From: Alphaproteobacteria bacterium
GTDB lineage: Bacteria > Pseudomonadota > Alphaproteobacteria > Micavibrionales > Micavibrionaceae
Direction: 5' to 3'
Assembly (NCBI GenBank): GCA_016125135.1
Contig: WGMJ01000010.1
Location: 1 to 35,884 of the forward strand
Length of the DNA stretch: 35,884 bases
The position numbers were made by a program, and so were the translations under genes. The notes under the pieces are model-generated. The model was not told where the DNA came from, did no database searches, and was given only the letters and a program-made list of their open reading frames with translations. How positions within the stretch are numbered: position 1 is the stretch's first letter; each line of letters starts with the position of its first letter. Below are positions 3,051 to 21,101 of the stretch, piece by piece.

Positions 3051-3138
3051 TTTTATAACTTTCTGTTGAATATGGAACGGGTTATTTTGTATGCGCCCCT
3101 ATGGAGTCACGCCAATTATGCTTACCAACGAAAATTGA

Positions 3139-3212
3139 TGGAGCGGGCGATGGGAATCGAACCCACGTAGCTAGCTTGGAAGGCTAGAGCTTTACCATTA
3201 AGCTACGCCCGC
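3139..3212 (-). tRNA. tRNA-Gly (anticodon UCC)
   Basis: A complete cloverleaf on the minus strand: acceptor GCGGGCG/CGCCCGC, anticodon stem CTAGC/GCTAG with loop CTTCCAA (anticodon TCC), T arm with GGTTCGATTCC, discriminator T and encoded CCA (3142-3139). It reads GGA and GGG. Its 3' end recurs at 1062-1078. It lies 35 bases downstream of the SAM-hydrolase-like gene. Confidence 0.95.
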
Positions 3213-3247
3213 TTACGCTGCCACATTAGGGTTAATCCCCGAAACGG

Positions 3248-4063: not shown

Positions 4064-4076
4064 TTTTCTACACCCT

Positions 4077-4096
4077 TTAAGACTTTTTAAGACTTT
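4077..4096. repeat. Two-copy tandem 10-base repeat upstream of the SAM-hydrolase-like gene
   Basis: The sequence ttaagacttt occurs twice in tandem at 4077-4086 and 4087-4096, 14 bases upstream of the start codon at 4063, inside the 78-base gap to the deacetylase gene. It could be a small slippage duplication or a repeated regulatory half-site. Two copies alone do not allow a choice. Confidence 0.5.
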
Positions 4097-4141
4097 GATT
4101 TCTTGGCTGATTACTAGCAGGGCGGGCGGGGAGAATTCAAG

Positions 4142-4969
4142 CTAAATCGAAATGAATTCAACGCCTTTTGATTTCATGTGCAAAACCAGCGCCTTAAAGG
4201 TATCGAACAGCTTGTTATGGTCGTGCATCAGTACGATATTTTTGCTGTCGTCACGGTGCAGCCACGGGTCGCTGTCTATTTTACCCTTGAGCGCGTCAAG
4301 GCTCTGGTAGGTCCAGTCTTTGCTGTGGGGTTTGAAGTCGGGGTTTAACATCCAGTCGGCTGTCGAGAAGGTATAGAGGTTATCAACCGCTTCGGCCATT
4401 TCCGTGTCTGTATACCACGGGAAAGTCACACCTTTGAAAATATCGGCGGTGAAGCCTTCACGCTTCAAATATGCCTGCAGCTTGTTTTTCTTCTCAAGCA
4501 GTGCTTCGGTTTGCGGCTGTATATCCACACAAAGGCCGCTCCAGAATAATTCTTTCAAAACGGGCTCATCGGCGGCGGAAAGTTTCGAGAAGTCGAGGAC
4601 ATTGGCAGCCGCGCCACGGTCGATATGCGGGAAGCGGAAAAGTTTATGGGGTCTTGTTTTTCCTGCGCGCTTATAAAGTTTTTCAATCTGTGCTTCGGTT
4701 TTTTCTATTTCTTCGATTTCCTGTTCGAGCGTCAGGTCATTCGCGCGTTGATGCGTATAGGTATGATTGCCGATAATAAAGCCGCGCTCGATGGCGCGTA
4801 CAATCGGGTCGGGCATGACTTCCATACCCTCGCATTGCAGGCCCAGCTCTTCATATGCGCCGCCAATGCAATAAAGAACCGCAGGGATTTCCTGTTCGAC
4901 CAGAAAGTCCACCAGCTTGTCGGTGTCGCGCGTGGGGGAGTCATCAATGGTCAGGTAGGCTTGGGGCAT
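4142..4969 (-). CDS. Polysaccharide deacetylase (carbohydrate esterase family 4, NodB domain)
   Basis: A 275-residue metal-dependent deacetylase that removes N- or O-acetyl groups from a polysaccharide. The CE4 motifs are present in order: TIDDSPT at 7-13 (catalytic and metal-binding D9, D10), H69-T-Y-T-H73 (metal-binding H-x3-H), RFPHIDRG at 112-119 (R-x-P) and VLMHDH at 246-251 with the catalytic His H249. No signal peptide or membrane segment is visible, so either it acts in the cytoplasm or export is not encoded in this reading frame. It starts 18 bases after the cation exporter gene in the same direction, probably as one transcript. The substrate is not evident. Confidence 0.88.
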   Translation of the reverse strand: MPQAYLTIDDSPTRDTDKLVDFLVEQEIPAVLYCIGGAYEELGLQCEGMEVMPDPIVRAIERGFIIGNHTYTHQRANDLTLEQEIEEIEKTEAQIEKLYKRAGKTRPHKLFRFPHIDRGAAANVLDFSKLSAADEPVLKELFWSGLCVDIQPQTEALLEKKNKLQAYLKREGFTADIFKGVTFPWYTDTEMAEAVDNLYTFSTADWMLNPDFKPHSKDWTYQSLDALKGKIDSDPWLHRDDSKNIVLMHDHNKLFDTFKALVLHMKSKGVEFISI

Positions 4970-4987
4970 TTTTTTACTTCTATCCGG

Positions 4988-5878
4988 TTAGTGTCTCGCA
5001 TCATATGTATCGCCGTAGGGGTCGATATGGATGATGATATCGGCCTCGGGATATTTTTCAAGAATGGCTTTTTCGGCAACCCGCGCCATTTCATGAGCTG
5101 TCCACAGTAAAATAGACGGGTCCATTTCAACATCAAAGGAAATCATGTGCCGTGTGCCGGAAAGTGTAACGCGTAAATCATGCATGCCGAGGATTCCTTC
5201 TTGCCGCGCGACAATCTCGGTAATGTCTTTTAAGATAGCTTCATCAACCTGTTTGTCCATCAGCATATCAAATGCTTCATGCCCCATTTTAAAGGCTGTT
5301 TTTACAAAAAGAGCGGCAATGCCAAGCGCCAGCAACACATCAATGATTGGTGGTGCACCATATTGGCTGAGGAGTAGCGAGATAATCACAACGCCGTTGA
5401 GGAAAATATCGGTGCTGTAATGCGCGTGGTCGGCCTTAAGCGCCAGCGAGTTTGTTTTTTTCAAAAAATATTTTTGGGCAACCACCATGACGATTGTCAG
5501 GATCATTGCAAAAATAAGCAGGCCAATACTTGAAATCTGGTTTTCAATCGGCGTTTTATCAACAAGCCGCTGGATACTATCCAGCGCGATAAAGAAAGCA
5601 GCACTGAACATAAGACCCGCCTGCAATAAAGCGGCAACGCCTTCTATCTTGCCGTGGCCGAACCGGTGATCATCATCCGCCGGTTTTTGCGACCATGAAA
5701 CAACCATCAGCGTGACAAGTGAAATTGTGCAATCGAGAACTGAGTCAGTAAAACTTGCCAATACACTGGCAGAACCCGAATTGAAAAACGCCAGCGCCTT
5801 CACGACCAGCATAAGGCTGACCATGGTCACCGTAAAAATCGCCGAGAGGCGAGCATAGTTGGCGAGAAAGGGCTTCAT
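4988..5878 (-). CDS. Cation diffusion facilitator family exporter, FieF-like (Zn2+/Fe2+)
   Basis: A 296-residue inner-membrane metal/proton antiporter. The metal sites match E. coli FieF almost residue for residue: D45 and D49 in TMS2, H153 and D157 in TMS5 for the transport site, D68 and H75 in the DHRFGHGK loop, and H233, H262, H284 and D286 in the cytoplasmic C-terminal domain (each one position off FieF numbering). About six hydrophobic segments lie between residues 10 and 195. The DxxxD / HxxxD site predicts Zn2+, with Fe2+ and Cd2+ as possible substrates. The gene diverges from the solute-binding protein gene with only 37 bases between start codons, so their promoters must overlap. Confidence 0.92.
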   Translation of the reverse strand: MKPFLANYARLSAIFTVTMVSLMLVVKALAFFNSGSASVLASFTDSVLDCTISLVTLMVVSWSQKPADDDHRFGHGKIEGVAALLQAGLMFSAAFFIALDSIQRLVDKTPIENQISSIGLLIFAMILTIVMVVAQKYFLKKTNSLALKADHAHYSTDIFLNGVVIISLLLSQYGAPPIIDVLLALGIAALFVKTAFKMGHEAFDMLMDKQVDEAILKDITEIVARQEGILGMHDLRVTLSGTRHMISFDVEMDPSILLWTAHEMARVAEKAILEKYPEADIIIHIDPYGDTYDARH

Positions 5879-5915
5879 GCTGGACAGCGTAGCACGCGGG
5901 GGCTATTCTCGCTAT

Positions 5916-6761
5916 ATGCGTTCCTTTTACATTATTCTCCTTGCGGCTGTGGTTTCGCTTGCAGTGAGTTTGGCCTTGCCGCTTTTTAAAGCGGACTCAC
6001 CAGCGCAGCATGATGGCGGGACAGCCTATGACCGTGTCATGAAAACGGGCGTTCTTCGCTGCGGTTATTTTGTGCTGGATGGCTACTTACATAAAGATAT
6101 GGAGAGCGGGGCATTGGGTGGGCCTGCCTACGAGATTATAGAGGCGCTGGCAAAAATTATAAGCGTGAAGGTTGAGTGGGTGCAAGAGGCTGCTTTTGCT
6201 TCCATTGGTGAGGACCTGAAGCAGGGGCGCTACGATATGATGTGCGCACCGCTTTTACCCAATGGCCCGCGTAGCCGCGTTATGGCGATGTCGCGCCCTG
6301 TATGGTGGCAGCCTTTAACGATATGGCTGAATAAAGATGATGCGCGGTTGAGTGACACGCCTGAATGGTTGAATGCACCGGAAACAAAATTCAGTGTTAT
6401 TGATGGCACAGGCTTCCCGACTGTTGTTTCCAGCTTTTACCCGCAGGCTGGTATGGTTGCGCTACCAGAGATGACGGCCATAAGCGAAATGTTTCTGGAG
6501 TTAACAGGGCGCAAAGTTGATGCGCTTTTAATGATGCATTATCCGGCTGTGAAATATGCCGCGCGGAATGATGGGGCGATTGTGCAATATACAAACCGGA
6601 TTGTAAGTTACCTGCCATACCGCTTTGCATGGGCCAAGGGCGACCAGAAAATGGCCGAGATGGTTGATATCGCACTGGAAGAACTTGTTTATACGGGCGT
6701 TATTAATAACATTCTCGATAAATACGACCCTGAAGGTATTTTTTATAAACGGCCCGAGTAG
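5916..6761 (+). CDS. Periplasmic solute-binding protein, family 3 type
   Basis: A 281-residue exported protein with a typical signal sequence (about 20 hydrophobic residues after MRSFY). It continues as a bilobal solute-binding domain: TGVLRCGYF near the start, then ALAKIISVKVEWV, LKQGRYDMMCAPL and, in the second lobe, a segment ending in LEELVYTGVINNILDKY. These are features of the SBP_bac_3 superfamily, which binds amino acids or related small molecules. The ATG at 5916 is preferred over an upstream in-frame ATG at 5859, because it puts the signal peptide at the N-terminus and avoids overlap with the divergent exporter gene. No permease or ATPase gene is adjacent, so it may be an orphan binding protein or sensor. 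Confidence 0.8.
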   Translation: MRSFYIILLAAVVSLAVSLALPLFKADSPAQHDGGTAYDRVMKTGVLRCGYFVLDGYLHKDMESGALGGPAYEIIEALAKIISVKVEWVQEAAFASIGEDLKQGRYDMMCAPLLPNGPRSRVMAMSRPVWWQPLTIWLNKDDARLSDTPEWLNAPETKFSVIDGTGFPTVVSSFYPQAGMVALPEMTAISEMFLELTGRKVDALLMMHYPAVKYAARNDGAIVQYTNRIVSYLPYRFAWAKGDQKMAEMVDIALEELVYTGVINNILDKYDPEGIFYKRPE

Positions 6762-6768
6762 AATTTTG

Positions 6769-6798
6769 TTGACATAATCATTAAGAATTCGCTATAAG
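6769..6798 (+). promoter_or_regulatory. Predicted sigma70-type promoter for the 95-residue membrane protein
   Basis: TTGACA (6769-6774), 18 bases, then TATAAG (6793-6798). The start codon is 20 bases downstream at 6818, with an AGAGGG ribosome binding site at 6807-6812. It begins 8 bases after the solute-binding protein stop codon, so the small gene is probably transcribed separately. Confidence 0.65.
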
Positions 6799-6817
6799 CA
6801 TGGTTTAGAGGGCAACT

Positions 6818-7105
6818 ATGACCACAGACATAGGACTTAAAGGGAATTTGATTATATTGGCGCTGGCAGCAACAGCGTTCGTTGGGCTTAAAAGTTGCCA
6901 GCAAGAAGAATTTACAGCGCAAGACGGCGCAGAGTATCTCGTAGAGCAGGGCCGTACAAACATACAAGGCGGCGAGGTAGATGTATGGAATTGGTGTATT
7001 AAAGGCGAGATCGGCAGGCGCTACACAGTAGATGCTGACCAATCCGGCGAGCGTGAAGAAGTTGTTGTGTGTAATGGTTGGGGCACCCACATCGCCCCGT
7101 TCTAA
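6818..7105 (+). CDS. Small membrane-anchored or exported protein of unknown function
   Basis: A 95-residue protein. Residues 9-25 form one hydrophobic segment ending in LKSC. The remaining 70 residues are polar and would lie outside the membrane, with two further Cys (in WCIKGE and VCNGWG) that could form a disulfide in the periplasm. The LKSC sequence is not a good lipobox because Lys occupies position -2. It has its own promoter and a clear ribosome binding site. Its stop is 4 bases from the convergent tag gene, leaving no room for a terminator between them. I do not recognise a family. Confidence 0.7.
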   Translation: MTTDIGLKGNLIILALAATAFVGLKSCQQEEFTAQDGAEYLVEQGRTNIQGGEVDVWNWCIKGEIGRRYTVDADQSGEREEVVVCNGWGTHIAPF

Positions 7106-7109
7106 AAAT

Positions 7110-7685
7110 CTATCGTAATTCTTTATGGCGGAAACAACTTGTCACATGGTCATTCACCATGCCTATGGATTGCATGTGCGCATACATTATTGTCGGGCCG
7201 ACAAAGCTCATGCCGCGCTTTTTCAAATCTTTTGAAAGCGCTTTTGCTTCCTTGGTCTCGATGGGAATCTCCTTGCCGGTTTTCCACTTATTCTGGATTG
7301 TCTTGTGGCTCACAAAGCCCCAAATGTAATTATCGAACGAGCCGAACTCTTTTTGAATCTCTAAAAACACACGGGCGTTTTTGCGGGCTGAATAGATTTT
7401 CAGGCGGTTGCGAATAATGCCTTCGTTCTTCATCAGCTTGTTCAGCTCGGCATCGGTCATTTTCGCGACCTTTTTCGGGTCGAAGTTCTTGAACGCTTTT
7501 TTATAGGCCGCGCGGCGTTGTAAAATGGTAATCCAGCTTAAGCCCGCTTGCGCGCCTTCCAGCACAAGCATTTCAAAATGCAAACGCTCGTCATGCACGG
7601 GCACACCCCATTGCTCGTCGTGGTATTTCTCGTAGAAGGGTTTGCCAGTGCCAACCCATGTGCAGCGTGTTTTTTGTTTGGTCAT
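7110..7685 (-). CDS. tag: DNA-3-methyladenine glycosylase I
   Basis: A 191-residue base-excision repair glycosylase that removes 3-methyladenine from alkylated DNA. The zinc-binding set of E. coli Tag is conserved: C8 (RCTWVG), H22 (KYHDEQWG), H180 and C184 near the C-terminus. The base-recognition Glu lies in LEGAQAGLSW (E43), followed by the helix-hairpin-helix region (KNEGIIRNRLKI). The length is normal for the family. Its start overlaps the stop of the upstream methyltransferase gene by 4 bases, so the two are probably co-transcribed and translationally coupled. Confidence 0.95.
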   Translation of the reverse strand: MTKQKTRCTWVGTGKPFYEKYHDEQWGVPVHDERLHFEMLVLEGAQAGLSWITILQRRAAYKKAFKNFDPKKVAKMTDAELNKLMKNEGIIRNRLKIYSARKNARVFLEIQKEFGSFDNYIWGFVSHKTIQNKWKTGKEIPIETKEAKALSKDLKKRGMSFVGPTIMYAHMQSIGMVNDHVTSCFRHKELR

Positions 7686-8437
7686 GATCGCCTCGGAATA
7701 ACAAGAAAGCTTTTTGATTTTCTATTATAAGACTTTATCTCTTCGATTTGCAGGTTTTTATTTTGATCCGCGAATTCATTGAAGGCTTTGTACTCGCCCA
7801 TATTTTTAATATCAAGATCGTTGAGTTTCCAGTCATCAAAGCAAAGAATAGCAGGGCTTTTTATAAGAGGAGAGAGAAAATCAAGCACTGATTTGGACGA
7901 GCTATAAGTATCACAGTCAATAAAGGCAATGCCGATATTATCAATTTTATGCGCCTGTGCGGTCTCCGCATTGAGGGTTTTATTATACCAGCCCTTCACC
8001 CACGTCATATCGTTAGGTGGTACATTGCGGCGTGATAAACATTCTTGCATTCTTTCGAAAGAGCAGGCGTAAAAGCTTTTTTTCCAGACACCGGCATCCT
8101 CGTTTTCGGCATGTTCCGGTAATCCCTCAAACGCGTCAAAGCCGAAAAGGCGCATTTGTGAGGCCGCCTTATATTCTGCACGCGCAATATGCATGGAGCC
8201 AATTGAGCTGCCATTAAAAACGCCGAACTCCAGATAGTCTCCGATCTCCGGCCCTTTCAGTTTTTGTAACATCGTTATACAGCCGGAGAAAAAGCTGATC
8301 AGTCTTTCAGGTGGCACAAGGTGGATGGTGCAGATATCATCGACAGCGCCGGCAGTCCATGGGGAGCGGGGAACAGGAAAGAATTTCCGGTAAAGTTTTT
8401 TGGCACAAATTTGTAGCGGGGAATATCTGTAGGTCAT
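7682..8437 (-). CDS. TylF/MycF-type class I SAM-dependent methyltransferase
   Basis: A protein of about 251 residues with the TylF (macrocin O-methyltransferase) signature set. It has the SAM-binding YLEFGVFNGSSIGS, then LFGFDAFEGLPE, WVKGWYNKTL, the strand and metal-binding Asp in IAFIDCDTYSSSKSVLDFL, and ILCFDDW. Members O-methylate sugars or small molecules, often with Mg2+; the acceptor here is unknown. The open frame extends up to 8596, but that would add about 53 residues of non-conserved sequence and run into the ABC-3C ATPase gene. I therefore place the start at the ATG at 8437, although its ribosome binding site is weak. It is coupled by a 4-base overlap to tag. Confidence 0.75.
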   Translation of the reverse strand: MTYRYSPLQICAKKLYRKFFPVPRSPWTAGAVDDICTIHLVPPERLISFFSGCITMLQKLKGPEIGDYLEFGVFNGSSIGSMHIARAEYKAASQMRLFGFDAFEGLPEHAENEDAGVWKKSFYACSFERMQECLSRRNVPPNDMTWVKGWYNKTLNAETAQAHKIDNIGIAFIDCDTYSSSKSVLDFLSPLIKSPAILCFDDWKLNDLDIKNMGEYKAFNEFADQNKNLQIEEIKSYNRKSKSFLVIPRRS

Positions 8438-8561
8438 GAATAAATGGTGGTGTATTCGAATCCCGTTCACGAACTTTTCAAATACTTCCCAACACACAGT
8501 AATCATACAACATTTTTGAAATTCAAAACAATGGCTAAAAATAACAAAAATGTTCGCAGGC

Positions 8562-10577
8562 TTATTCTTGCTCTTGAAGAATAAATTTCTCTCCAAAATC
8601 TATGATGTTCATTCCTAAGTCCGTCGCTTTTTGTTTAACGGTATGATTTTTGTCAGTGGCAGCAATGATAACCTGACCGCCTTTTTGGCACACCTCAGAA
8701 ATTAGAGGATATAACTCTAGGTGGTCCGATATATCCATATTTTGCTGCGCAGGCTCATCAAATACAGAAATATTAGGATGATTGCTTTTTTCAGAGTTAT
8801 TTCGTGAGGCGTGCAAAGCTAGTGTGTAAGCAGTAATAATTCTTATCCAATCACTTGCAGAACTACCAAAATCAGCTCGCATATTCTTCTTTCTAGCTAA
8901 AGAATCAACTCTTACTCGAGGCATAAAAGTTGCCTCATCTATAAAAATAGATTCTATCTCGAATGAGTTATAACCGAGTTTTCCAAGGTAGGATTTGAAT
9001 GTATTTCCGAATCTTCGAAGTAAACTTTGATCTTCTTTTGATAAATCAGATCTTAGCCCCTGTAGCCTTTTATTTTTCACATGATAACGATCAAAAATCT
9101 CTTTTAATTTTTCAAACATACCTAAGCTATATGAGTTAAGCTCTTCTAGCGCGTCAACTTCCTGCTCTAATTTTGCCACCTCTCGAGCTTGAACCATCAT
9201 TTCAGCAGGAATTGATCCAGAGAGGCTTCTCTGGATATCAGATATTTGTGACATCAAAGATTTTATTGTCTCTTCTATACGTCGGTTTTCAATCAACGCA
9301 TTAGATTTTCTTTCCTCTTCAACAGACAAGACATCTTCGAGTAGTTTTCTTTGCTCATTAATATATTTTATATTGTCGTCAATAGACATGGTTGGAAAAG
9401 ATCGAACTTGAGAAAGCAAAGACTCATCAATCGCTTGCTCGCACACGGGGCAATGCTCTTTTACAGACCAGCTATCATGAGCAAATAATTGCTTTATTTT
9501 TTGCTCTTCTTTATTTTTTTGGAGATCTGCTTCAAGCACTACCATCCTTTGCTGATAACGCTTAATAGCACCATCTAAAGAAGAAATAACACTGTCTAAT
9601 TCATTTTTTTGATGGACATTAGCCCTGATAAGCTCAGAAGTTTCAAATAACTTTTTTTCAAGCTCCGGGTTAGCGTCAGGAACAATCGATATTCCTTCAA
9701 CAGAAGAAAGCTTTGATTGTTTTTCTGATAAAAGATTTTTCAGAGGCACGTTATCTCTTCCCTCAAAGCTCTGGTATACTGCAGGATTCCAAACTTCTGA
9801 GTTAACATCTTGAGGTATACCTCTCAAAGAAAAGTGACGGCTATTAACATACTGCTTTAGAGTTTCGTAATAGCTTTCATAAATCGCCTTTAATCTATCG
9901 ACCTCTAGCTTTAGTGTATTTCTCTGAAGATTGTTTTTAATGTAATCCATGCCCAGTATCTCAGCCACAGTAGACTTCTTAGGGTCACGAACTCTGTAGT
10001 ATGGTGAGTTAGACATTATGTCAGCCCAGCCACGCTTTTGTTCGATAAATATCGCAGAGAAAATATACTCCAAATAAAGCCTCATTTCGGCATCGTCTTG
10101 AGAAACAACTTTTATCTCTGGAAAGCCTATAAATTCACTAAGTGCTCTATGGAATCCTCTTGTATCATTGTAAGAACCACTGCCAAGATAATATTCCTCA
10201 CATAAGTCATCATTCCATTCAGATAGTGGGGATCTTACAACCGCAACTCCTTTAGAAAGATCTGGTCTTATTTCACGTTTAATGGAGAAAAAATCACCTT
10301 TTTCGTTCTCAATTTGCAAATACACATATGCAGAAGCTATTGGCTGATCAGCTCCTTGAATTTTGATTGTATCGTTAACTAATGCAGATACATTGCCTTT
10401 AACCAGCTCATCAAACCCCAGCGCTATTGCCAAAGAATTTATAACAGAGCTTTTTCCCTGTGTATTAGAGTTTGTCAAAATGATGTTACAACCATCCTGA
10501 AAGGCTATATTTGCCACAGCATGCTTGCCATTCAGCAAGTGTGCATCCAACCGTACAATATTAAATTTCATATACAT
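8562..10577 (-). CDS. SMC/Rad50-like ABC ATPase of a predicted ABC-three-component (ABC-3C) defence system
   Basis: A 671-residue ATPase with the layout of Rad50/SMC proteins. Walker A is SNTQGKSS with K42. A long central region (about 215-520) of heptad-rich coiled coil is interrupted by a zinc-hook CPVC (C376, C379). A degenerate signature helix starts at GSSASDWIR (571-579), and Walker B is ISVFDEPAQQNMD with D607-E608. It probably dimerises on DNA or nucleoprotein and uses ATP to license its partners. It is the last gene of a three-gene operon, 4 bases after the middle component. The region is AT-rich (33% GC in the 60 bases from 8581), unlike the hsd genes. A second ATG two codons in (10571) is an alternative start. 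The ATPase is certain; ABC-3C membership comes from the neighbours. Confidence 0.8.
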   Translation of the reverse strand: MYMKFNIVRLDAHLLNGKHAVANIAFQDGCNIILTNSNTQGKSSVINSLAIALGFDELVKGNVSALVNDTIKIQGADQPIASAYVYLQIENEKGDFFSIKREIRPDLSKGVAVVRSPLSEWNDDLCEEYYLGSGSYNDTRGFHRALSEFIGFPEIKVVSQDDAEMRLYLEYIFSAIFIEQKRGWADIMSNSPYYRVRDPKKSTVAEILGMDYIKNNLQRNTLKLEVDRLKAIYESYYETLKQYVNSRHFSLRGIPQDVNSEVWNPAVYQSFEGRDNVPLKNLLSEKQSKLSSVEGISIVPDANPELEKKLFETSELIRANVHQKNELDSVISSLDGAIKRYQQRMVVLEADLQKNKEEQKIKQLFAHDSWSVKEHCPVCEQAIDESLLSQVRSFPTMSIDDNIKYINEQRKLLEDVLSVEEERKSNALIENRRIEETIKSLMSQISDIQRSLSGSIPAEMMVQAREVAKLEQEVDALEELNSYSLGMFEKLKEIFDRYHVKNKRLQGLRSDLSKEDQSLLRRFGNTFKSYLGKLGYNSFEIESIFIDEATFMPRVRVDSLARKKNMRADFGSSASDWIRIITAYTLALHASRNNSEKSNHPNISVFDEPAQQNMDISDHLELYPLISEVCQKGGQVIIAATDKNHTVKQKATDLGMNIIDFGEKFILQEQE

Positions 10578-10581
10578 ACTT

Positions 10582-11034
10582 TTAGTCTTCCGTTTTTAGC
10601 AGTGTGTTCACTTCTTTATCTGAGATTTTTCCGATGGACTTGCACAAATCAAATATATCTAGAGCAAGATCTTCATTTTTTAATGAATCAACAAAGTCTT
10701 TTCCCCTATCCGAAAGCTCGATCTTGAAGGAATTTTGTACTTTTTTCTGATTAACCAGACCAGCGCCCAGAGCATAGTTTACACAGCGGTTAAGGTAGGG
10801 ATCGGCTGATGGGCATAAAATCTTCAAGGTGAATTTATGCTTTTTGAAACCTGTATAAAGATTATAAAACTTAGAATCGATCATAAGGGCATTTAGAAAA
10901 TGCAACTGCTTAAATGAAGCAGAGCCCCCTCGGCAGCACACAGACAATGAAACACACAACATAGATAAACGACGATATAACCTTAGGTCAGACGGAACAT
11001 CAATCGGGCGTTGCTTGAATTCTAATTCAATCAT
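10582..11034 (-). CDS. Predicted middle component of the ABC-3C system
   Basis: A 150-residue protein, mostly helical. The segment around residues 85-110 (NRCVNYALGAGLVNQ, then IELSDRGKDFVDSL) reads like a winged-helix module. The size, position and winged-helix look fit the small middle components that link effector and ATPase in ABC-3C systems. I cannot assign a numbered subtype. Its start overlaps the effector stop by 8 bases and its stop is 4 bases before the ATPase start, so the three proteins are made together. Function is inferred from context; alone it would be a hypothetical protein. Confidence 0.6.
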   Translation of the reverse strand: MIELEFKQRPIDVPSDLRLYRRLSMLCVSLSVCCRGGSASFKQLHFLNALMIDSKFYNLYTGFKKHKFTLKILCPSADPYLNRCVNYALGAGLVNQKKVQNSFKIELSDRGKDFVDSLKNEDLALDIFDLCKSIGKISDKEVNTLLKTED

Positions 11035-11944
11035 TTTTTTGCCCTTTTTGTTTAAAATTTAAAGGGCATCTCACAAACCAGTCCGCAATAATATACTTTC
11101 TCACATTCGCCAAGGTTTTTGTTCCGAGGCGTGTTCCAATTTTATTAATGAGGCGCGTTTCTAAAGTATGTTTTGTATTCGAGAATGAATCATAAGAGCC
11201 TTCCATGATGCTTCCTTGCTTGGCATCAGCCTCGACGTCAGATCGCACCTCTTCTATAGAGCTGTAAAATTCAGGTTGCTGTTTTTGCGTTTCGTCCAAC
11301 CAGATAGCATTCTCAAAATAGTTCTTGATTTCATCTAAGGCTAAATTCTCTGCCTCCTCATCATTATCTGTAATTTTGCGAAACTTATTGAACACTTTTA
11401 TAAAATGTTCGTTTTCTCGTATGTTATTCATAGATGACGTTTGAGGATTGGGAATCTCAACTTCTATTCGATCGTCTTTTTTCTTATGATATTCGAGGCT
11501 TTCTGTTTCAAAATATGATGGTGTTTGAATGATGACCTGAAAATCGTCGTCAATAAATTCCAATTGCCACGATTTAACTTCATCCTCCTTATTTTTTGCA
11601 TACTGATGAATGCTGTTATGAGGGATATCTTTGTTGATGAGTAATACCCAGCGCTTGATTTTGTTTTTACCCACGAGCTCTAAAATTTCGCTCTGGTTTT
11701 TCTTGAGCTTTGTTAGATCGGTATGAATTTTGTTTTTAACGCCTTGTGCAGGGTCTTTATTTTCTGGCTCTTGACCGTACGCCTGATACGCTACCCCCTC
11801 AGACAAGCTTAAGCCATCAAGGCCAAGATCTCCGCCCTTATCGCCTATAGGCTGATAATTTGCGCCATGCTTAAGAGATAGAAGCGCGTGGCATCTATTT
11901 TCCCAATCATCTCCATAAAGATCTCTGTACCAAAACGAGTCCAA
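11027..11944 (-). CDS. Predicted ABC-3C effector with restriction-endonuclease-like N-terminal domain
   Basis: A 305-residue protein. The N-terminal 60 residues resemble a PD-(D/E)xK nuclease core: an early helix with E15 (DDWENRCHALL), the strand pair GDKGGDLGLDGL with D39 and D43, then YQAYGQ at 53-58. The usual Lys after the Gln is replaced (Q-A-Y), a variant that should be checked for activity. The C-terminal half is helical and probably docks to the partners. The start is a TTG at 11944: no in-frame ATG precedes the nuclease motif, an in-frame TAG lies four codons upstream, and AGAGGTG is spaced correctly. It is the first gene of the operon and diverges from the hsd operon. Confidence 0.6.
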   Translation of the reverse strand: MDSFWYRDLYGDDWENRCHALLSLKHGANYQPIGDKGGDLGLDGLSLSEGVAYQAYGQEPENKDPAQGVKNKIHTDLTKLKKNQSEILELVGKNKIKRWVLLINKDIPHNSIHQYAKNKEDEVKSWQLEFIDDDFQVIIQTPSYFETESLEYHKKKDDRIEVEIPNPQTSSMNNIRENEHFIKVFNKFRKITDNDEEAENLALDEIKNYFENAIWLDETQKQQPEFYSSIEEVRSDVEADAKQGSIMEGSYDSFSNTKHTLETRLINKIGTRLGTKTLANVRKYIIADWFVRCPLNFKQKGQKND

Positions 11945-12008: not shown

Positions 12009-12036
12009 CCCAAAATTGACAAAGGTGCAATCAAGA

Positions 12037-12228
12037 ATGGATAACGACGATATATTAACAATCAAAGAATTGTCGCTGTATTTGAAGCTTGCCGAGAAAA
12101 CAGCTTACAGACTTGCCTCTGATGGCAAAATTCCTGGCTTTAAAGTCGGGGGCGCTTGGCGTTTTCGAAAGTCTGAAATTGATCGCTGGATCGTCAAGCA
12201 AGAGCAGAAAAAAGAAGGGGAAGAATAA
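12037..12228 (+). CDS. Small helix-turn-helix DNA-binding protein (HTH_17 / excisionase-like family)
   Basis: A 63-residue protein made almost wholly of one MerR/excisionase-type winged helix: [19 protein letters not shown] (helix-turn-helix, about 8-25), [15 protein letters not shown] (wing) and KSEIDRWI. A Lys/Glu-rich tail follows. Such proteins often precede hsdM in type I loci and are thought to regulate them. The ATG at 12037 is preferred over an in-frame TTG at 12016. The stop is one base before the hsdM start, so translation is coupled. It probably binds the dyad at 11992-12008. Confidence 0.85.
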
Positions 12229-12229
12229 C

Positions 12230-13777
12230 ATGACAGGCAAACAACAACGCGATGCGCTTCAGCGCCAAATCTGGAAAATTGCCAATGACGTTCGTGGCGC
12301 GGTTGATGGTTGGGATTTTAAACAATATGTTCTTGGCACATTGTTTTACCGCTTTATCAGCGAAAACTTTGCCAGCTATATCGAAGCCGATGACGACAGC
12401 ATCAACTATGCCCAGCTTGCCGATAGCGTCATCACACCAGCGATTAAAGACGACGCCATCAAAACCAAGGGTTATTTTATCTACCCAAGCCAGTTATTCG
12501 TTAATGTTGCAAAAACTGCCAATACCAATGAAAGTCTGAACACTGACCTTGCCAAAATCTTCGCCGAGATCGAAAGCTCAGCTAACGGCTACCCATCTGA
12601 AAGCGATATCAAGGGATTGTTCGCGGATTTTGATACAACCAGCAACCGGCTCGGTAATACAGTTACTGCTAAAAACAAGCGTCTTGCAGATGTTCTTAAA
12701 GGTGTGGCGGGCTTAGAATTTGGTGATTTCCACGGTAGCCAGATTGATCTTTTCGGTGATGCGTATGAATTCCTTATCTCCAACTATGCCGCCAATGCGG
12801 GTAAATCGGGCGGGGAATATTTCACACCGACGCATGTGTCTAAACTGATCGCTCAGCTGGCCATGCACAAGCAAACCAGCGTCAATAAAATCTATGATCC
12901 TGCCTGCGGTTCTGGGTCATTGCTGTTGCAGGCTAAAAAGCATTTTGATGCCCATATCGTGGAAGAAGGTTTTTTTGGTCAGGAACTAAATCATACCACC
13001 TACAACCTCGCGCGCATGAATATGTTCTTACACAATATCAACTATGATAAGTTTCAGATCGAACTAGGCGATACGCTTATTCATCCGCATTTTGGCGATG
13101 ATAAACCATTCGATGCGATTGTTTCCAACCCGCCTTATTCGGTGAAATGGATCGGCTCGGACGATCCAACGCTTATCAATGACGACCGCTTTGCCCCTGC
13201 GGGCGTGCTTGCGCCAAAATCAAAGGCCGACTTTGCCTTTGTACTGCATGCCTTAAGCTACCTGTCTAGCAAAGGCCGAGCGGCAATTGTTTGTTTCCCC
13301 GGTATTTTCTACCGTGGTGGGGCGGAGCAGAAAATCCGCCAATATCTGGTTGATAATAACTATGTTGAAACGGTGATTTCTCTTGCGCCGAATCTGTTTT
13401 ACGGCACAACCATCGCCGTGACGATTTTGGTTCTGGCAAAAAACAAATTAAACACAGATATCCAGTTTATTGACGCCAGCGGTGATGAATTCTTCAAAAA
13501 AGAAACCAACAATAACGTCATGTATGATGACCATATCCAGCGCATCATGGATATGTTCGACAGTAAGGAAAAGGTCGAACACATCGCCGAAACCGTTCCG
13601 TATGAGCGGATTGTTGCCAATGATTACAACCTATCCGTAAGCAGCTATGTTGAGGCAAAGGACAACCGCGAGGTAACGAATATCACCGAACTGAATGCCG
13701 ACATTGAAACGACGGTCGGCAAGATTAACCAATTGCGAAACGATATTGATTCCATTATTGCGGAGATTAACGCATGA
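12230..13777 (+). CDS. hsdM: Type I restriction-modification system DNA methyltransferase subunit (type IC-like)
   Basis: A 515-residue N6-adenine methyltransferase that acts with HsdS to modify host DNA and with HsdR to restrict foreign DNA. It has an N-terminal helical HsdM_N domain (about 1-165), the [13 protein letters not shown] segment (196-208), SAM-binding DPACGSGS (223-230) and the catalytic NPPY (300-303). The open frame extends to 12089 inside the HTH gene. The ATG at 12230 is chosen because it starts at the conserved N-terminus and has a purine-rich AAGAAGGGGAAG ribosome binding site. It overlaps hsdS by 4 bases (ATGA). Its base composition (about 52% GC from 13201) is richer than that of the ABC-3C operon next door. 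Confidence 0.96.
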
Positions 13778-14991
13778 GCGAAGCAAATTTTTTAGAAAAA
13801 CTTTTGGATGGCGCAGAGGTTGAATGGTTGCCGTTGGGTGATGTAACCCAGTATGAGCAACCCACTAAATATCTAGTAAAAACGAAAAATTATGATGATG
13901 CGTTTGAAACTCCCGTTTTAACGGCAGGCAAAACTTTTATTCTTGGTTATACAGACGAAACTGACGGAATAAATAAGGCTTCAGGAAATCCTGTAATAAT
14001 TTTTGACGACTTTACTACGGCCAACAAATGGGTTGATTTTGATTTCAAAGCAAAGTCATCAGCAATGAAGATTATTACATCAAGCGATGATAATAAATTC
14101 ATCTTAAAATACGTTTATTATTGGATGAACACATTGCCAAGTGAACTTACGGATGGAGATCATAAACGTCATTGGATTAGCAATTTTTGCAACAAAAAAA
14201 TCCCAATTCCATGCCCAGATGATCCGAAGAAGTCGTTGACGATACAGGCGGAGATTGTGCGGATTTTGGACGCATTTACCGAGCTTACAGCCGAGCTTAC
14301 AGCCGAGCTTACAGCCGAGCTTACAGCCCGCAAAAAACAATACAACCATTATCGTGACCAACTCCTCACTTTTTCGGATGATACCAACGTTGAATGGAAG
14401 CCGTTAGATAAAGTAGCACAATATTCAAAAACGCGTATTAGCTTTGAAGCTCTTGATGAAACAAATTATGTTGGCGTTGATAATCTTCTGCAAAATAGAG
14501 CTGGTAAAGTTGATTCCAATTATGCCCCCACCTCAGGAAATCTGACCCAATACAAAGTTGGTGATATTTTGCTTGGGAATATACGGCCTTACCTAAAGAA
14601 AATATGGCATGCAGATCGTATAGGTGGAACGAATGGTGATGTTCTGGTCATACACCCCACGGATAAAAATATTAATCCACGATATATATATCAGGTTTTG
14701 GCTGATGACAAATTCTTCGAATACAACATGCAGCATGCCAAGGGAGCAAAAATGCCTCGGGGAAATAAACTTAAAATCATGGAATATAATATTCCAATCC
14801 CATACGCCAACGATCCTCAAAAGTCATTGGCGGAACAAGCCCGCATCGTTGATATTCTCGACAAGTTTGATGCGCTAACCAATTCCATTAGCGAAGGTCT
14901 GCCGCGTGAGATTGAGTTGCGCCAAAAGCAATACGAATATTACCGTGACCTTCTCCTAAACTTCCCCAAACCGATGGAGGAAGCAGCGTAG
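13774..14991 (+). CDS. hsdS: Type I restriction-modification specificity subunit with TAEL spacer repeats
   Basis: A 405-residue protein that selects the bipartite DNA target. It has two target-recognition domains (about 15-150 and 200-345), each followed by a conserved helical spacer. The first spacer reads DAFTEL, then three TAEL units, then [15 protein letters not shown]; the second is DKFDALTN...[13 protein letters not shown]. This half-repeat symmetry is typical of HsdS. The TAEL units are as in EcoR124I and EcoR124/3, where repeat number sets the length of the non-specific gap in the recognition sequence. The target itself cannot be read from sequence. It is coupled to hsdM by a 4-base overlap and to the next gene with no gap. 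Confidence 0.95.
14281..14328 (+). repeat. Four exact 12-base tandem repeats in hsdS (TAEL repeats)
   Basis: gagcttacagcc occurs four times without a mismatch at 14281-14292, 14293-14304, 14305-14316 and 14317-14328. It encodes E170 to A185, giving three full TAEL units after an initial TEL. The copies are identical even at third codon positions, so recent or continuing slippage or recombination is likely. Each 12-base step adds or removes four residues without breaking the frame. Confidence 0.97.
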
Positions 14992-16569
14992 ATGAGCGGT
15001 CAATTGTACAACCTGATCATGGCAAGCGTGCCTGGCTTTTACTCAGGCGATCAAGGGGAATTCACGATTCCGAAAGACAGGTTTTTAGAATACACGGAAG
15101 ATGCTATCAAAGGACAATTTCAATCCTTAGATCAGAATGCAATCAATAAACTCAAGAGCCTGCCAACCATTTTTGCAGTAGAGGATGAAGTCGCCGATGC
15201 AAGAATTGGGAAAATTACCGATATCAAGGTTAATTCAAATAATCTACGTGCCAAATATAGATTTGACAAAGACCACTACCCTTTAACCAGAGGCATCCTA
15301 AAGGAGCATCAACAAAAATTAGGTATCGATGATTTTGAGTTTCACAGGGGGCATTGGGCCGTTAAGGAATGTGATATTTCTGATTTTTATGAAGAGTATT
15401 TAAAATCGCTCACAGGGATTGCCCATAAATTAAAGAATACTGATAAAAAGGTGCAGTTGATTTATGCCTTTAACGGCACGGGTAAAACGCGGCTTTCTCG
15501 TTTACTAAAAGACTTGATTGCACCGAAAAGCGATGATGACGGTCTTGATCCTTCGGAGTTCTCTCAACAAAAGATCTTATATTATAATGCGTTCACCGAG
15601 GATTTATTCTATTGGGATAATGATTTGGACTTTGATTTAGAGCCTAAATTAAAAATTCAGAAAAACAAATTCATTGACTGGATTCTTAAAATACAGGGCG
15701 ATCAAGGGATAATCGAAAATTTCCAGCGCTATACGGATGAAAAACTAACGCCGCAGTTTATCGGCGTTGACGTGGTTCAAGATGGGAAAAAGACGGGTGA
15801 GAAAACTTACCCAGAGGTGACTTTCTCTTACAAGCGCGGGGACGATACCAATTCAGGCAATATCAAAATATCCAAAGGTGAGGAAAGCAATTTCATCTGG
15901 AGCATATTTTATACGTTACTAGATCAGATTATTACCATTCTTAATGAACCCGAGGAAGAACGCACTGGACAGTTTGACGGGTTGGAATATGTGTTTGTTG
16001 ATGACCCTGTCAGCTCGCTTGATGAAAATCACTTAATTGAATTGGCGGTCAATTTGGCGGAGCTTATAAAATCCGCCCCAGCGCATTTAAAATTCATCAT
16101 CACAACGCATAATCCGCTTTTTTATAATGTGCTGTATAACGAGGTAAATAGTAAAAAATGCTATTTGCTGGAGAAGTTTGAAGATGGGACTTTTGCCCTG
16201 CTTGAAAAGGATGGCGATTCCAACAAAAGTTTTTCATACCATTTGTATTTAAAACAAATCATAGAAAATGCGATTGCCGATAATCAGATAGAAAAGTTTC
16301 ATTTTACATTATTGCGAAACCTGTATGAGAAAACGGCCAGTTTTCTAGGATACGCAAAATGGCAAGATTTATTAGAAACCGCGCTAGGCGACAAAGATGC
16401 GTATTTGAAGCGTATCATAACCTTTAGCAGCCATCGCACCCTATCTAGCGAAGAAGTGCGCGATCCAACGGGGCCAGAGAAGCAAACAGTAAAGCTGTTG
16501 CTTGACAATTTAATTGATAATTACGGCTATTGGCCGAAAAAGGAAGACGCAAATGGTAGAACTAACTAA
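14992..16569 (+). CDS. prrC: PrrC-family anticodon nuclease with an extra N-terminal domain
   Basis: A 525-residue protein in the hsdS-hsdR gap, the place of prrC in E. coli prr. Residues about 153-525 match PrrC from memory. They include [17 protein letters not shown] (Walker A, K165), [19 protein letters not shown] (194-212), [11 protein letters not shown] (294-304), [12 protein letters not shown] (Walker B, D337-D338) and TTHNP (H373). The catalytic triad R320/E324/H356 corresponds to R442, E446 (LRNLYEK) and H481 (FSSHRTLS). PrrC is held latent by the restriction complex; when a phage inhibits that complex it cleaves the tRNA-Lys anticodon loop and aborts infection. Residues 1-130 are an added domain absent from the 396-residue E. 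coli protein. The ATG directly follows the hsdS stop; an ATG at 15019 is an alternative. Confidence 0.9.
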
Positions 16570-19500
16570 ACCCATCGCAGAATCAAACCGCTTTATTGTT
16601 CTTGATAAATATATCAAGGAATGGGAGGTCGCTGACAGTTATCAATCCGAAGGTGATTTGGAGCGTGAGCTTGTTGCAGATCTGGTCAAACAGGGCTATG
16701 AATTTCTGCCCGATCTCACAACGCCAGATGCCATGCTGGCTAATGTACGTATGCAATTACAAGCCCTCAATAATGTGCAGTTCACTGATGCCGAATGGGC
16801 GCGATTTGTTGAAACATTTCTTGATAAGCCGAGCGACGGCATTGTCGATAAAACCCGCAAAATCCATGATGATTATATCCATGATTTTGTGTTCGATGAC
16901 GGACGCATTCAAAACATTTATTTAGTCGATAAATCGAATGTTTCCCGCAACAAAGTGCAGGTTATCAAGCAGTTTGAGCAAACTGGAAGCCATGCCAACC
17001 GCTATGATGTGACGATTTTGGTGAACGGTTTGCCGTTGGTACAAATTGAGCTGAAAAAGCGAGGTGTTGCCATTCGGGAAGCCTTTAACCAAATCCATCG
17101 CTATAGCAAGGAAAGCTTCAACAGCGATCACTCGCTTTATAAATATTTGCAGCTATTTGTGATCTCAAATGGAACAGATACGCGCTATTTCGCTAACACA
17201 ACCCAGCGCAACAAAAACAGCTTCGACTTTACGATGAATTGGGCAAAGGCGGATAACAGCCTGATTAAAGATTTGAAGGATTTTACCGCGACCTTCTTCC
17301 AAAAAAATACCCTGCTTAATGTGCTTTTGCATTATTCGGTTTTTGATATCAGTAACACCTTGCTTGTTATGCGCCCTTATCAGATTGCGGCGACCGAGCG
17401 TATTCTTTGGAAAGTTAAAAGCTCCAATCAAGCTAAAAACTGGAGCAATGCAGACAGCGGGGGCTATATCTGGCACACCACAGGATCAGGCAAAACACTG
17501 ACCAGCTTTAAGGCAGCGCGTTTGGCGACGGAGCTAGATTTTATAGATAAAGTGTTCTTTGTAGTCGACAGAAAAGACCTTGACTATCAAACTATGAAGG
17601 AATACCAGCGCTTCTCTCCCGATAGCGTGAATGGTTCTGATAGCACTGCTGGGCTTAAACGTAACATTGATAAAGACGATAACAAGATTATTGTTACGAC
17701 GATCCAAAAGCTCAACAACCTAATGAAGAGTGAGAATGATCTGGCGATATACAATAAGCAGATCGTCTTTATTTTTGATGAATGTCACCGTAGCCAATTC
17801 GGCGAAGCGCAGAAAAACCTTAAGAAGAAATTCAAACGCTTCTATCAATTTGGATTTACCGGAACGCCAATTTTTCCGCAAAATGCTCTGGGCGCAGATA
17901 CGACAGCCAGCGTGTTTGGTCGTGAGCTTCATTCCTATGTGATTACCGATGCTATTCGCGATGAAAAAGTCCTAAAATTCAAAGTAGACTACAATGATGT
18001 GCGCCCGAAATTTAAAGACATTGAAACCGAGCAGGATGAGAAAAAACTGAATGCGGCAGAAAATAAAAAGGCGTTGCTGCACCCCGAGCGTATCCGTGAA
18101 ATCTCACAATACATTCTAAATAACTTCCGCCAAAAAACCCACCGCTTGCAAGGTAACAACAAAGGCTTCAATGCCATGTTTGCAGTGAATAGCGTTGATG
18201 CAGCAAAAATCTATTATGAAACGCTCAATAGCCTGCAGGCAAATAGTGATAAACCGATTAAGATTGCGACTATCTTCTCCTTCAATGCCAATGAAGAACA
18301 GGATGCCGTGGGTGATATTCCTGATGAGAGTTTTGACGTATCTGCTATGAACAGCAGTGCCAAAGAGTTCTTAAGTGCGGCTATCAGTGATTATAATGCT
18401 TTCTTTAAAACCAATTTCAGCGTTGATAGTAAAGGATTCCAGAACTATTACCGCGACTTGGCTAAACGGGTAAAATCTCAGGAAATTGATTTGCTGATCG
18501 TTGTTGGCATGTTCCTGACTGGCTTTGATGCACCGACACTAAATACATTATTCGTTGATAAAAACCTTCGTTATCACGGGTTGATGCAGGCATATTCACG
18601 TACGAACCGTATTTACGATGCGACAAAAACCTTTGGTAATATCGTGACTTTCCGTGATTTGGAACAGGCAACGATCGATGCCATTACCCTATTTGGCGAC
18701 AAAAACACAAAGAATGTGGTTTTAGAAAAAAGCTATAAAGAATATATGGAAGGTTTTAGTGACGCTTCATCGGGTGAGGCTCGACGTGGGTTCATTGATG
18801 TGGTTACTGAACTGGAACAACGTTTCCCGAACCCGGAAGAGATTGTAAAAGAGGCTGATAAAAAAGCCTTTGCTAAACTATTCGGTGAGTATCTTCGTGT
18901 TGAAAATATCCTTCAAAATTATGATGAGTTTGCGAGCTTAAAAGCACTTCAAACTTTAGATATGAATAATACCGAATCTGTCGAAGAATTTAAACAGAAG
19001 CATTATTTGAGCGATGAGGATTTGGCTACGCTGCAATCTATTAAGATGCCTGCTGAACGCAAGATCCAAGATTATAGATCTACATATAATGATATCCGTG
19101 ATTGGTTGCGTAGAGAAAACGCGGCGAATGAGAAAGAGAAATCAAATCTGGACTGGGATGATGTCGTATTTGAAGTTGACCTTCTTAAATCTCAAGAGAT
19201 CAACTTGGATTATATTTTGGAACAAATTTTTGAGAAAAACAAAAAAGTAAAAGACAAAGCGACGCTGGTTGAAAATGTGCAGCGTATGATACGTTCTAGC
19301 TTAGGCAATCGGGCAAAAGAAAGCCTATTGGTAGATTTTATCAATCAAACCGATCTCGATAAAATCGGCGACAAAGCCAGTGTTATTGAAACTTTCTTTG
19401 CCTTTGCCCAAGCTGAACAACAACGTGAAGCGGAAGAGCTGATAAACTCTGAAAGCCTCAACGTCGAAGCCGCAAAGCGTTATATAGCAACATCAATTAA

Positions 19501-19654
19501 ACGTGAGTTTGCCAGTGATAACGGGACAGAGCTCAATGCAATCTTACCTAAAATGAGCCCGCTCAACCCTGAATACCTCACAAAAAAACAAAGTGTTTTC
19601 CAAAAGATATCCGCATTTGTCGAAAAGTTTAAAGGTGTTGGCGGGGATATTTAG
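16553..19654 (+). CDS. hsdR: Type I restriction endonuclease subunit (type IC-like)
   Basis: A 1033-residue motor and nuclease subunit, close to EcoR124I HsdR in length (about 1038). The PD-(D/E)xK nuclease has D152 (YDVTILV) and E166/K168 (QIELKKR), each one position from the EcoR124I residues. The SF2 translocase has Walker A TTGSGKT (309-315) and DECH (409-412) in [12 protein letters not shown], and later [18 protein letters not shown] and QAYSRTNRI. The C-terminal helical region contacts HsdM/HsdS. The start at 16553 fits the family N-terminus and overlaps the end of prrC by 17 bases. The open frame extends slightly further upstream. Its stop shares the four bases TTAG with the convergent endolysin stop. 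Confidence 0.96.
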
Positions 19655-20088
19655 ATAAGTGAGTATATTTTTGCCTCAGCTTCTCTACGCCGAACAAGCC
19701 CTTTTAGCTTACGACCACCTGCCCAGACCCAGCGCATAAATTGCTCTGGCACTTCGGCGTGCTCCTCGCGATTGATTTTACGGCGCAGTGTAGAGCGTTG
19801 AAGCGCCCCACCGCCAAGATTGTAGGTGAATGATACCAGCGCATCAAACTGTCCGTCTGTCAGTGGTACATTAATCAGGCGCAAAACAGCACGCTCGGCG
19901 ATTACGGCATCTTGGCGCAATAATTCCTCTGCCTGCGCTTCATTAATGCCTACCGAAAAGTCCTCATGCGGTTTGACAACATGGCCGTAGCCGATGGTCG
20001 GATAACCAGCTGGGCATATATAGACTTTTGCAGAAAACCCTTCGAACCGCTTAATTAAATCGATACCGTTTTGCGTAAAGTGGCGCAT
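19651..20088 (-). CDS. Phage endolysin, GH24 lysozyme (muramidase)
   Basis: A 145-residue T4-type lysozyme that hydrolyses the MurNAc-GlcNAc bond of peptidoglycan. The catalytic Glu is E16 (IKRFEGF) and the T26 equivalent is T31 in YPTIGYGH. The T4 D20 position is Cys here (C25 in YICPAGYP), as in other GH24 endolysins with an E-C-T triad. [19 protein letters not shown] is the conserved second-lobe segment. There is no signal peptide or SAR anchor, so access to the wall should need the holin upstream. A strong ribosome binding site (AAAGGAGAA) precedes the ATG. It is the last prophage gene before the hsd locus. Confidence 0.93.
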
Positions 20089-20156: not shown

Positions 20157-21101
20157 ATGGTAAAAACATTGGGACGCTTAGAGCGCGTTGAGCTTCGGCA
20201 TATTTGGGAAACAGAAGATCGTGACTTCACGCCTTGGCTTGCCCGTGAAGAGCACCTTCAAATTCTAGGTGATACAATCGGCCTGGAACTTGAACTGGAA
20301 GCGCAAGAAAAGGATGTGGGGCCATTTCGGGCTGATATCCTTTGTAAAAATACCCTCGATGACACTTGGGTTCTAATTGAAAACCAAATTGAAAGAACTG
20401 ATCATAAGCACCTCGGACAGCTAATGACCTATGCGGCTGGCCTTGATGCTGTCACCATTATTTGGGTTGCCTCAAAATTCACGGAAGAACACAGATCTGC
20501 ACTAGACTGGTTGAATAAAATCACAGATACAGATTTTCGCTTTTTTGGCCTAGAGGTTGAATTATGGCGTATTAATGATTCAATCCCTGCGCCCAAATTT
20601 AACGTCATTTCACAGCCGAATGATTGGAGCTCAACTGTTTCTCGTGCCGCCCGAAAAATTGAAGAAGAAGGACTAAGCGCATCACAGGAACTTCAATTAA
20701 AATATTGGACGCACCTATCTGAATATCTAGAAGCCAACTCTGACACAAAACTTCGCTCCCCTGGTGCTAAAGGTTGGTCAGATTTCTCCCTTGGAAAGAC
20801 GAATGCTATATTGCGTATCTCAATCAGTACTCAAACTGGAAAATTGGCTGCGGGCGTATATCTCTACAAAAATATGAAGGAGAAATACGACTATTTATAT
20901 GAGCAGAAAGATGCCATTGAGGCTTCATTCGAGGAGGCTTTGGAGTGGGAAAACAATCCCGACAAACAAACGGCTGTAATTAAAATCGAAAAATCTGCTG
21001 ATATTAGCAATGAGAGTGATTGGCTTGATCAACATGAATGGTTTAAGCAAAAGTTGGAATCTTTCAGACGAGTATTTCGCCCCCTCGTGCGAGAATTCTA
21101 G
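20157..21101 (+). CDS. DUF4268 protein with PD-(D/E)xK-like core, probable prophage cargo (moron)
   Basis: A 314-residue protein. The N-terminal half has a nuclease-like pattern: D60 in FRADILC, then WVLIENQIERTDHKHLGQL with E75-N-Q77 in place of E-x-K, then AVTIIWVASKF. The C-terminal half (about 180-314) matches the DUF4268 domain as I know it. Such proteins are common in defence-rich and mobile regions, but the function is not established. It is the only plus-strand gene inside the minus-strand prophage module, has its own promoter, and its stop overlaps that of the next gene by four bases (CTAG). These are the marks of an inserted cargo gene. A nucleic-acid or defence role is an inference. 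Confidence 0.7.
   Translation: MVKTLGRLERVELRHIWETEDRDFTPWLAREEHLQILGDTIGLELELEAQEKDVGPFRADILCKNTLDDTWVLIENQIERTDHKHLGQLMTYAAGLDAVTIIWVASKFTEEHRSALDWLNKITDTDFRFFGLEVELWRINDSIPAPKFNVISQPNDWSSTVSRAARKIEEEGLSASQELQLKYWTHLSEYLEANSDTKLRSPGAKGWSDFSLGKTNAILRISISTQTGKLAAGVYLYKNMKEKYDYLYEQKDAIEASFEEALEWENNPDKQTAVIKIEKSADISNESDWLDQHEWFKQKLESFRRVFRPLVREF

Follow-up and report, generated by a model that had tools for sequence, protein, structure and literature searches.

A predicted PrrC-type anticodon nuclease in an hsd operon carries an extra N-terminal module that is portable among defence proteins

Introduction

The closest described system is E. coli PrrC with EcoprrI. In the available part of its account, E. 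coli PrrC has 396 residues, lies in the gene order hsdM-hsdS-prrC-hsdR and carries the triad Arg320, Glu324 and His356 (Uzan and Miller, PMC3014915). As far as the available text of the classic work goes, control of PrrC lies with the restriction complex together with a phage peptide (PMC3014915, PMC3874165), and PrrC dimers and tetramers have been reported (PMC3014915). The available part of a HEPN survey associates PrrC with an ABC ATPase and with R-M operons and mentions no further N-terminal domain; it also covers RloC, in which, as in the protein considered here, an ABC ATPase is joined to an anticodon nuclease (PMC3710099).

We analysed a DNA stretch of 35,884 nucleotides (the window), in which a predicted prrC gene stands inside an hsd operon. 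The window shares with E. coli PrrC/EcoprrI the gene order, a core of ABC ATPase plus nuclease, the R-E-H triad and an EcoR124-type HsdR, whereas its PrrC protein has 139 extra N-terminal residues that are absent from the ordinary PrrCs examined.

Results

The PrrC core and its operon

The features discussed are collected in Table 1. Residues 134-521 of the fusion protein match the PADLOC PrrC model (465 bits), and a Pfam AAA_13 match in the same ORF reaches 56 bits against a cut-off of 36. Motifs of an ABC-type NTPase were located at residues ~159-162 (Walker A), ~293 (signature) and ~331 (Walker B), and the predicted full-length model has a Rad50/SMC head fold (Foldseek match to Rad50, E 3e-7); since the mean pLDDT of this model is only 76, nothing was drawn from it on the mutual placement of the domains. 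In an alignment of PrrC sequences the columns of R442, E446 and H481, which correspond to Arg320, Glu324 and His356 of E. coli PrrC, are occupied by R, E and H in all but one of 26 rows, the exception (L148) having a gap there and a reading frame broken before that point. The distance from R to E is 4 and from R to H 39, the latter ranging from 36 to 44 in the other aligned rows, with 36 for the PrrC of an E. coli plasmid. The segment [15 protein letters not shown], a candidate for the 15-residue PrrC box, occurs as such or in near variants in other PrrCs too. The ORF is thereby predicted to encode a PrrC-type anticodon nuclease, one that probably kills infected cells by tRNA cutting. The preliminary description of this DNA had proposed the PrrC identity, this triad and the order of the hsd genes around it, and the model match, the alignment columns and the N6_Mtase, Methylase_S, HSDR_N and EcoR124_C matches of the neighbouring genes all agree with it.

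In RloC proteins Walker A and the signature are separated by a long coiled-coil, zinc-hook insert. The window protein, in contrast, has only ~130 residues in this interval (131), which leaves no room for an insert of that type, and RloC was ruled out as its identity on this ground.

Table 1 Positions of the features discussed, in the window and in other records
Record	Feature	Position	Strand	Basis
Window	GmrSD type IV restriction protein	1263-3050	-	Pfam GmrSD_N E 1e-32
Window	Lamassu-like cluster	8562-11944	-	LmuB 269 bits, LmuC 66 bits
Window	Gene next after LmuB/LmuC	11027-11944	-	no significant Pfam, NCBIfam or PADLOC match
Window	Small helix-turn-helix gene (HTH_17), directly upstream of hsdM	12016-12228	+	Pfam HTH_17 E 2e-16
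Window	hsdM, type I methyltransferase subunit	12230-13777	+	N6_Mtase E 3e-116, HsdM_N, NCBIfam hsdM 646 bits
Window	hsdS, specificity subunit	13774-14991	+	Pfam Methylase_S
Window	prrC fusion ORF	14992-16569	+	ATG start, 525 aa; first base directly after hsdS end
Window	Extra N-terminal module of the PrrC protein (residues 1-139)	14992-15408	+	homologue-based profile; heads 122 ORFs; AF2 model
Window	Predicted PrrC core: Rad50/SMC-like ABC ATPase head plus anticodon nuclease	15409-16569	+	PADLOC PrrC, Foldseek Rad50, triad columns
Window	hsdR, restriction subunit with EcoR124_C domain	16553-19654	+	HSDR_N; EcoR124_C E 7e-69
Window	Phage lysozyme	19651-20088		
Window	DUF4268 protein	20157-21101	+	whole-length match to PADLOC candidate PDC-S11, 388 bits
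Window	Tape-measure protein	28642-31662	-	
L052	hsdS	6771-8000		
L053	hsdS	6789-8000		
L010 (Sphingorhabdus plasmid)	Module-deoxyribosyltransferase-like gene and type II set	3065-7624		
L012 (Lactococcus plasmid)	Module alone, 188 aa	4794-5360		
L054 (Corallococcus)	Module heading a 733-residue protein	8001-10199		AAA_5 ATPase

The operon has the order hsdM-hsdS-prrC-hsdR and is type IC-like, with EcoR124_C in HsdR, and the 5' end of hsdR overlaps the 3' end of prrC. The start of hsdM was placed at the ATG of MTGKQQ by comparison with L053 (the listed TTG ORF begins at 12089), and that of hsdR, by our own choice, at the ATG of MVELTK (the listed TTG ORF begins at 16514). The hsdS of the window is only 48-52% identical to those of L052 and L053, while the hsdM and hsdR of these operons are at least 90% identical to the window's, as expected if target recognition domains have been exchanged. 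Elsewhere in the window, the GmrSD protein, the Lamassu-like genes and the PDC-S11 match form a defence cluster together with hsd-prrC, in which the gene next after LmuB/LmuC may take the place of LmuA; the right part of the window, with its lysozyme and tape-measure protein, looks like a prophage.

The extra N-terminal domain

The distance to Walker A is 159 residues in the window and in two sister fusions, against 24-48 in 13 module-free PrrCs, namely those that were taken with their start codon. An ordinary PrrC opens, for example, with [31 protein letters not shown] (L172), and the matching [29 protein letters not shown] here comes after the extra domain, so that the join lies at the position of the old start codon. 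Among 28 PrrC loci the profile of the module was present in three, the window and the two sister fusions, and absent from the other 25 tested (a duplicate pair, a fragment and a broken copy among them); ordinary PrrCs occupy the same operon type without it. A coherent N-terminal domain that is no ordinary feature of the family, as put forward in the preliminary description, is indeed present, but its length is ~139 rather than about 130 residues, and it is joined where an ordinary PrrC starts. The domain does not appear to be an ORF artefact, because the same fusion is found in two further genomes (98% and 71%) and homologues of residues 1-137 head many other proteins. The core is that of a PrrC and the architecture differs from the usual one.

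Within the order, seven of 142 genomes match the fusion protein, at full length only the genome itself, G521 (98%) and G486 (71%); the named records of the sister fusions, a Micavibrio MAG (L052) and an uncultured alphaproteobacterial MAG (L053), are probably the G521 and G486 genomes. None of the 201 plasmid records matching the whole fusion protein covered 80% of its length, and the 398 sampled genomes of the phylum held 16 places above 400 bits for PrrC, the window's included. The module-PrrC fusion is rare (three genomes, one order) and might be of little consequence.

A mosaic junction

Comparison of the window with L053 gave identities of 92% for the module (DNA 89%), 91% for hsdM (DNA 82%) and 90% for hsdR (DNA 82%), against 62% for the PrrC core (DNA 65%). 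Within the first 175 columns, third positions in conserved codons agree at 125 of 161, and beyond these columns at 99 of 204 (Fisher p 1e-8, the cut at 175 columns having been set after the profile was seen), with the junction of divergence near Walker A. After residue 166 the window's core is 70% identical to a Salinivibrio and 69% to an Azotobacter PrrC, both module-free, against 60% to that of L053. One clade for the three fusion cores was neither shown nor rejected by the tree (p-AU 0.38), and the argument for a core swap therefore rests on the contrast in divergence and not on the tree. In the simplest reading, one lineage would have exchanged its PrrC core behind a constant module; the alternative is a transfer of the module.

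The module in front of other effectors

The module was found in FRG-type proteins by a phage search with the whole fusion protein, and in TIR, FRG and nucleotide-binding-type proteins by a plasmid search with the module alone; scanning genome contigs yielded 121 confirmed relatives, and the best 80 of these were used. After removal of seven duplicate loci (L017, L037, L038, L042, L044, L048 and L049) from 129, 122 ORFs carry the module, near-identical viral copies remaining among them, so that the counts per effector class are not independent. The C-terminal parts are FRG (33), TIR_2 type (30), deoxyribosyltransferase-like (23), PF10137 or CAP12-type TIR (16), SEFIR (6), PrrC (3, on the best 80 of the 121 genome relatives, a distant fusion being possible among the other 41), an unnamed long type (2) and AAA_5, Abi_C and another TIR (1 each), while six ORFs are short or consist of the module alone. 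Classes were obtained by clustering and named from 12 representatives, all compared with Pfam and 11 with PADLOC as well, and the ten clusters are not ten unrelated folds, as TIR_2, SEFIR, PF10137 and the other TIR form one superfamily. In the unnamed class L014 matches below the cut-off and L127 has no match, and the Pfam match of the deoxyribosyltransferase-like class likewise falls short of the cut-off. Strong matches to PADLOC defence or candidate-defence models were seen for the FRG, SEFIR, PF10137 and PrrC representatives, and no PADLOC match for the TIR_2 representative P0004, L104, L014 and L012.

The module stands at or near the N-terminus of its proteins: the stretch of open frame separating it from the stop before it has at most 20 residues in 90 of the 122 ORFs, 21-50 in 20, 51-100 in 12 and more than 100 in none, with the frames of two (L026, L111) extending past the start of the locus, where their N-terminal extent is not bounded. 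Its hosts include Pseudomonadota, Myxococcota, Bacteroidota, Planctomycetota, Chloroflexota, Actinomycetota and others. In a tree of 86 modules (the non-redundant rows, used for the conservation counts as well, from 108 full-enough ones) the distribution of the ten clusters takes 12 changes to explain, where 9 is the minimum and shuffling gives a mean of 51, so the module mostly keeps its class, with a limited number of partner changes. The modules of the PrrC fusions, three in number, group together (support 89), and resolution is lacking at many nodes of the tree.

An independent library family made up of module plus FRG, PHROG 4962, matches residues 7-136 (E 4e-9). Its phage and prophage proteins of the Peduovirus P22H1 type have the same N-terminal module as the window protein but an FRG domain as effector in place of PrrC, and the single-gene TIR, SEFIR and CAP12-type TIR proteins of plasmids likewise share the module but carry TIR/SEFIR-type effectors, with no hsd operon in three annotated neighbourhoods. 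Near-identical copies of the module-FRG gene of P22H1 are present in 59 of 5,426 E. coli genomes, and the plasmid module-SEFIR gene has plasmid matches in 46 of the 5,426, 23 of them over at least 80% of its length. From these architectures the module is portable, defence-associated and common to many effector types, in line with the portable module of defence proteins envisaged in the preliminary description.

Three further loci show other arrangements. On the Sphingorhabdus plasmid a type II restriction set (dcm, vsr, endonuclease) is followed immediately by a module-deoxyribosyltransferase-like gene, after which comes a gene that has AbiJ_NTD5. On the Lactococcus plasmid the lone module adjoins a 291-aa gene that matches nothing in Pfam, and the two may be a split version; in Corallococcus the AAA_5 protein headed by the module looks McrB-like.

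The same description had suggested that the domain might tether the nuclease to the HsdMSR complex; a module that does so, or that helps to keep PrrC silent, would agree with the order of the hsd genes around the fusion, which the window shares with L052 and L053, and with the DNA of module, hsdM and hsdR staying close between the window and L053 while only the core diverges. Ordinary PrrCs in the same operon type, however, do without the module, and among the best 80 of the 121 relatives only three genome loci had hsd homologues nearby (flanks of up to 8 kb, less at contig ends, and relatives of this hsd set only), leaving 77 without; homologues of hsdM, hsdS and hsdR lie near the PrrC fusions of L052 and L053, and the third locus has one distant hsdM-like gene. 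In other contexts the module is independent of hsd genes, and a tether specific to HsdMSR is unlikely.

Conservation and predicted fold of the module

R30, E64 and W122 are identical in all 86 non-redundant rows, across all ten clusters, and G73, H121, A123 and K125 are conserved in 84. Conservation is strong and independent of the partner, with part of it a search effect: H-W-A-V-K belonged to the locus-finding peptide patterns, and P58, F61 and E64 to one of them, while R30 and G73 lie outside every pattern. In a pattern-free alignment of nine rows (eight homologues from tblastn or whole-genome protein searches) R30, E64, G73, R119, W122 and K125 are invariant. Residue 120 is G in the three PrrC fusions and T or N in 83 of the 86 rows.

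The recurrence of the module with many effectors fits oligomerisation or help in folding just as well as sensing. TIR and SEFIR domains generally work through assembly, which counts towards an oligomerisation or scaffold domain that joins effector subunits and has no sensing of its own. The dimers and tetramers reported for PrrC in the available account (PMC3014915) point the same way, but charged and aromatic residues that are invariant in all ten clusters resemble a binding site more than an interface; this is not decisive, and we consider a scaffold improbable.

Residues 1-151 have no Pfam or NCBIfam match, a weak PADLOC match to Cmr3 (E 0.0065) was taken for chance, Pfam on all 72 aligned modules gave stray matches only (at most two members each, best E 0.03), none of them to EVE, YTH or ASCH families, and a PDB sequence search gave nothing up to E 10. 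AlphaFold, from 72 sequences, predicted a compact and confident fold for residues 1-139 (mean pLDDT 92, pTM 0.88). Foldseek, including a viral structure library, gave no match to it under E 0.001; its top ten, none significant, include Lon-N, cereblon, YTH and RsmE, which we take to be PUA-like. The 50 rows of VIA-align are YTH and ASCH entries, the VcaM4I endonuclease, DrmAB and the structural-genomics proteins 1zce and 2gbs, presumably EVE domains, with 1zce the best (Z 6.9, rmsd 3.5 over 117 residues, below the tool's caution line of 8). HHalign of the module with 19 EVE domains, EVE being the one reader family compared in this way, scored 13.7, against up to 17.5 in shuffled controls. In overall charge the modules are acidic (mean net charge -6.4, median pI 4.95, 85 of 86 not positive), as opposed to the 19 EVE domains (mean +2.9, median pI 8.85). 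Because of the low Z, the EVE profile doing no better than shuffled controls and the acidic module against basic EVE, we treat the PUA-like resemblance as a weak lead and not as evidence for nucleic-acid reading. A PUA-like reader (EVE/YTH/ASCH type) of modified phage DNA or cut tRNA, which those structural names and the fusion to an AAA_5 ATPase in L054 would favour, EVE and YTH being specificity domains of McrB GTPases in the available part of one account (PMC7641849), is on the same grounds, and with no Foldseek E under 0.001, quite unlikely.

Discussion

The reading that we prefer, and hold to be somewhat probable, is a portable regulatory module that was added to PrrC at its start codon and gates the effector on a ligand of infection. 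The preliminary description had already raised the sensing of a trigger as a possibility, and we infer it here as the preferred role. The module would bind a ligand that appears in phage infection, a protein, peptide or small molecule rather than a nucleic acid, at a putative site including the conserved R30, E33, E64, R119, H121, W122 and K125, and would pass the signal to whichever effector follows. In the window's operon this effector would be an ABC-gated tRNA nuclease, with cleavage proposed from the sequence, and a trigger acting directly on PrrC would complement or replace the failure of the HsdMSR complex as its signal.

A bolder version of this gating module, which we regard as possible though rather doubtful, is a common infection sensor for all ten effector clusters, in which the same kind of trigger would serve TIR, SEFIR, FRG, Abi and PrrC proteins across many phyla, and PrrC, once a guard of the restriction complex, would have become a directly triggered effector.

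PrrC in an hsd operon is known; what is new is the portable N-terminal module fused to a PrrC core, and neither the module nor this fusion was found described in the literature searched, which covered few subscription papers. The occurrence of the module at the head of many kinds of antiviral protein suggests a shared switch that is passed among defence systems. If one module does switch many effectors, the discovery of a single trigger would account for a whole group of single-gene systems, including genes of ordinary laboratory species such as E. coli (module-FRG and module-SEFIR), and PrrC, the classic case of control by a restriction complex, would have a second way of being switched on.
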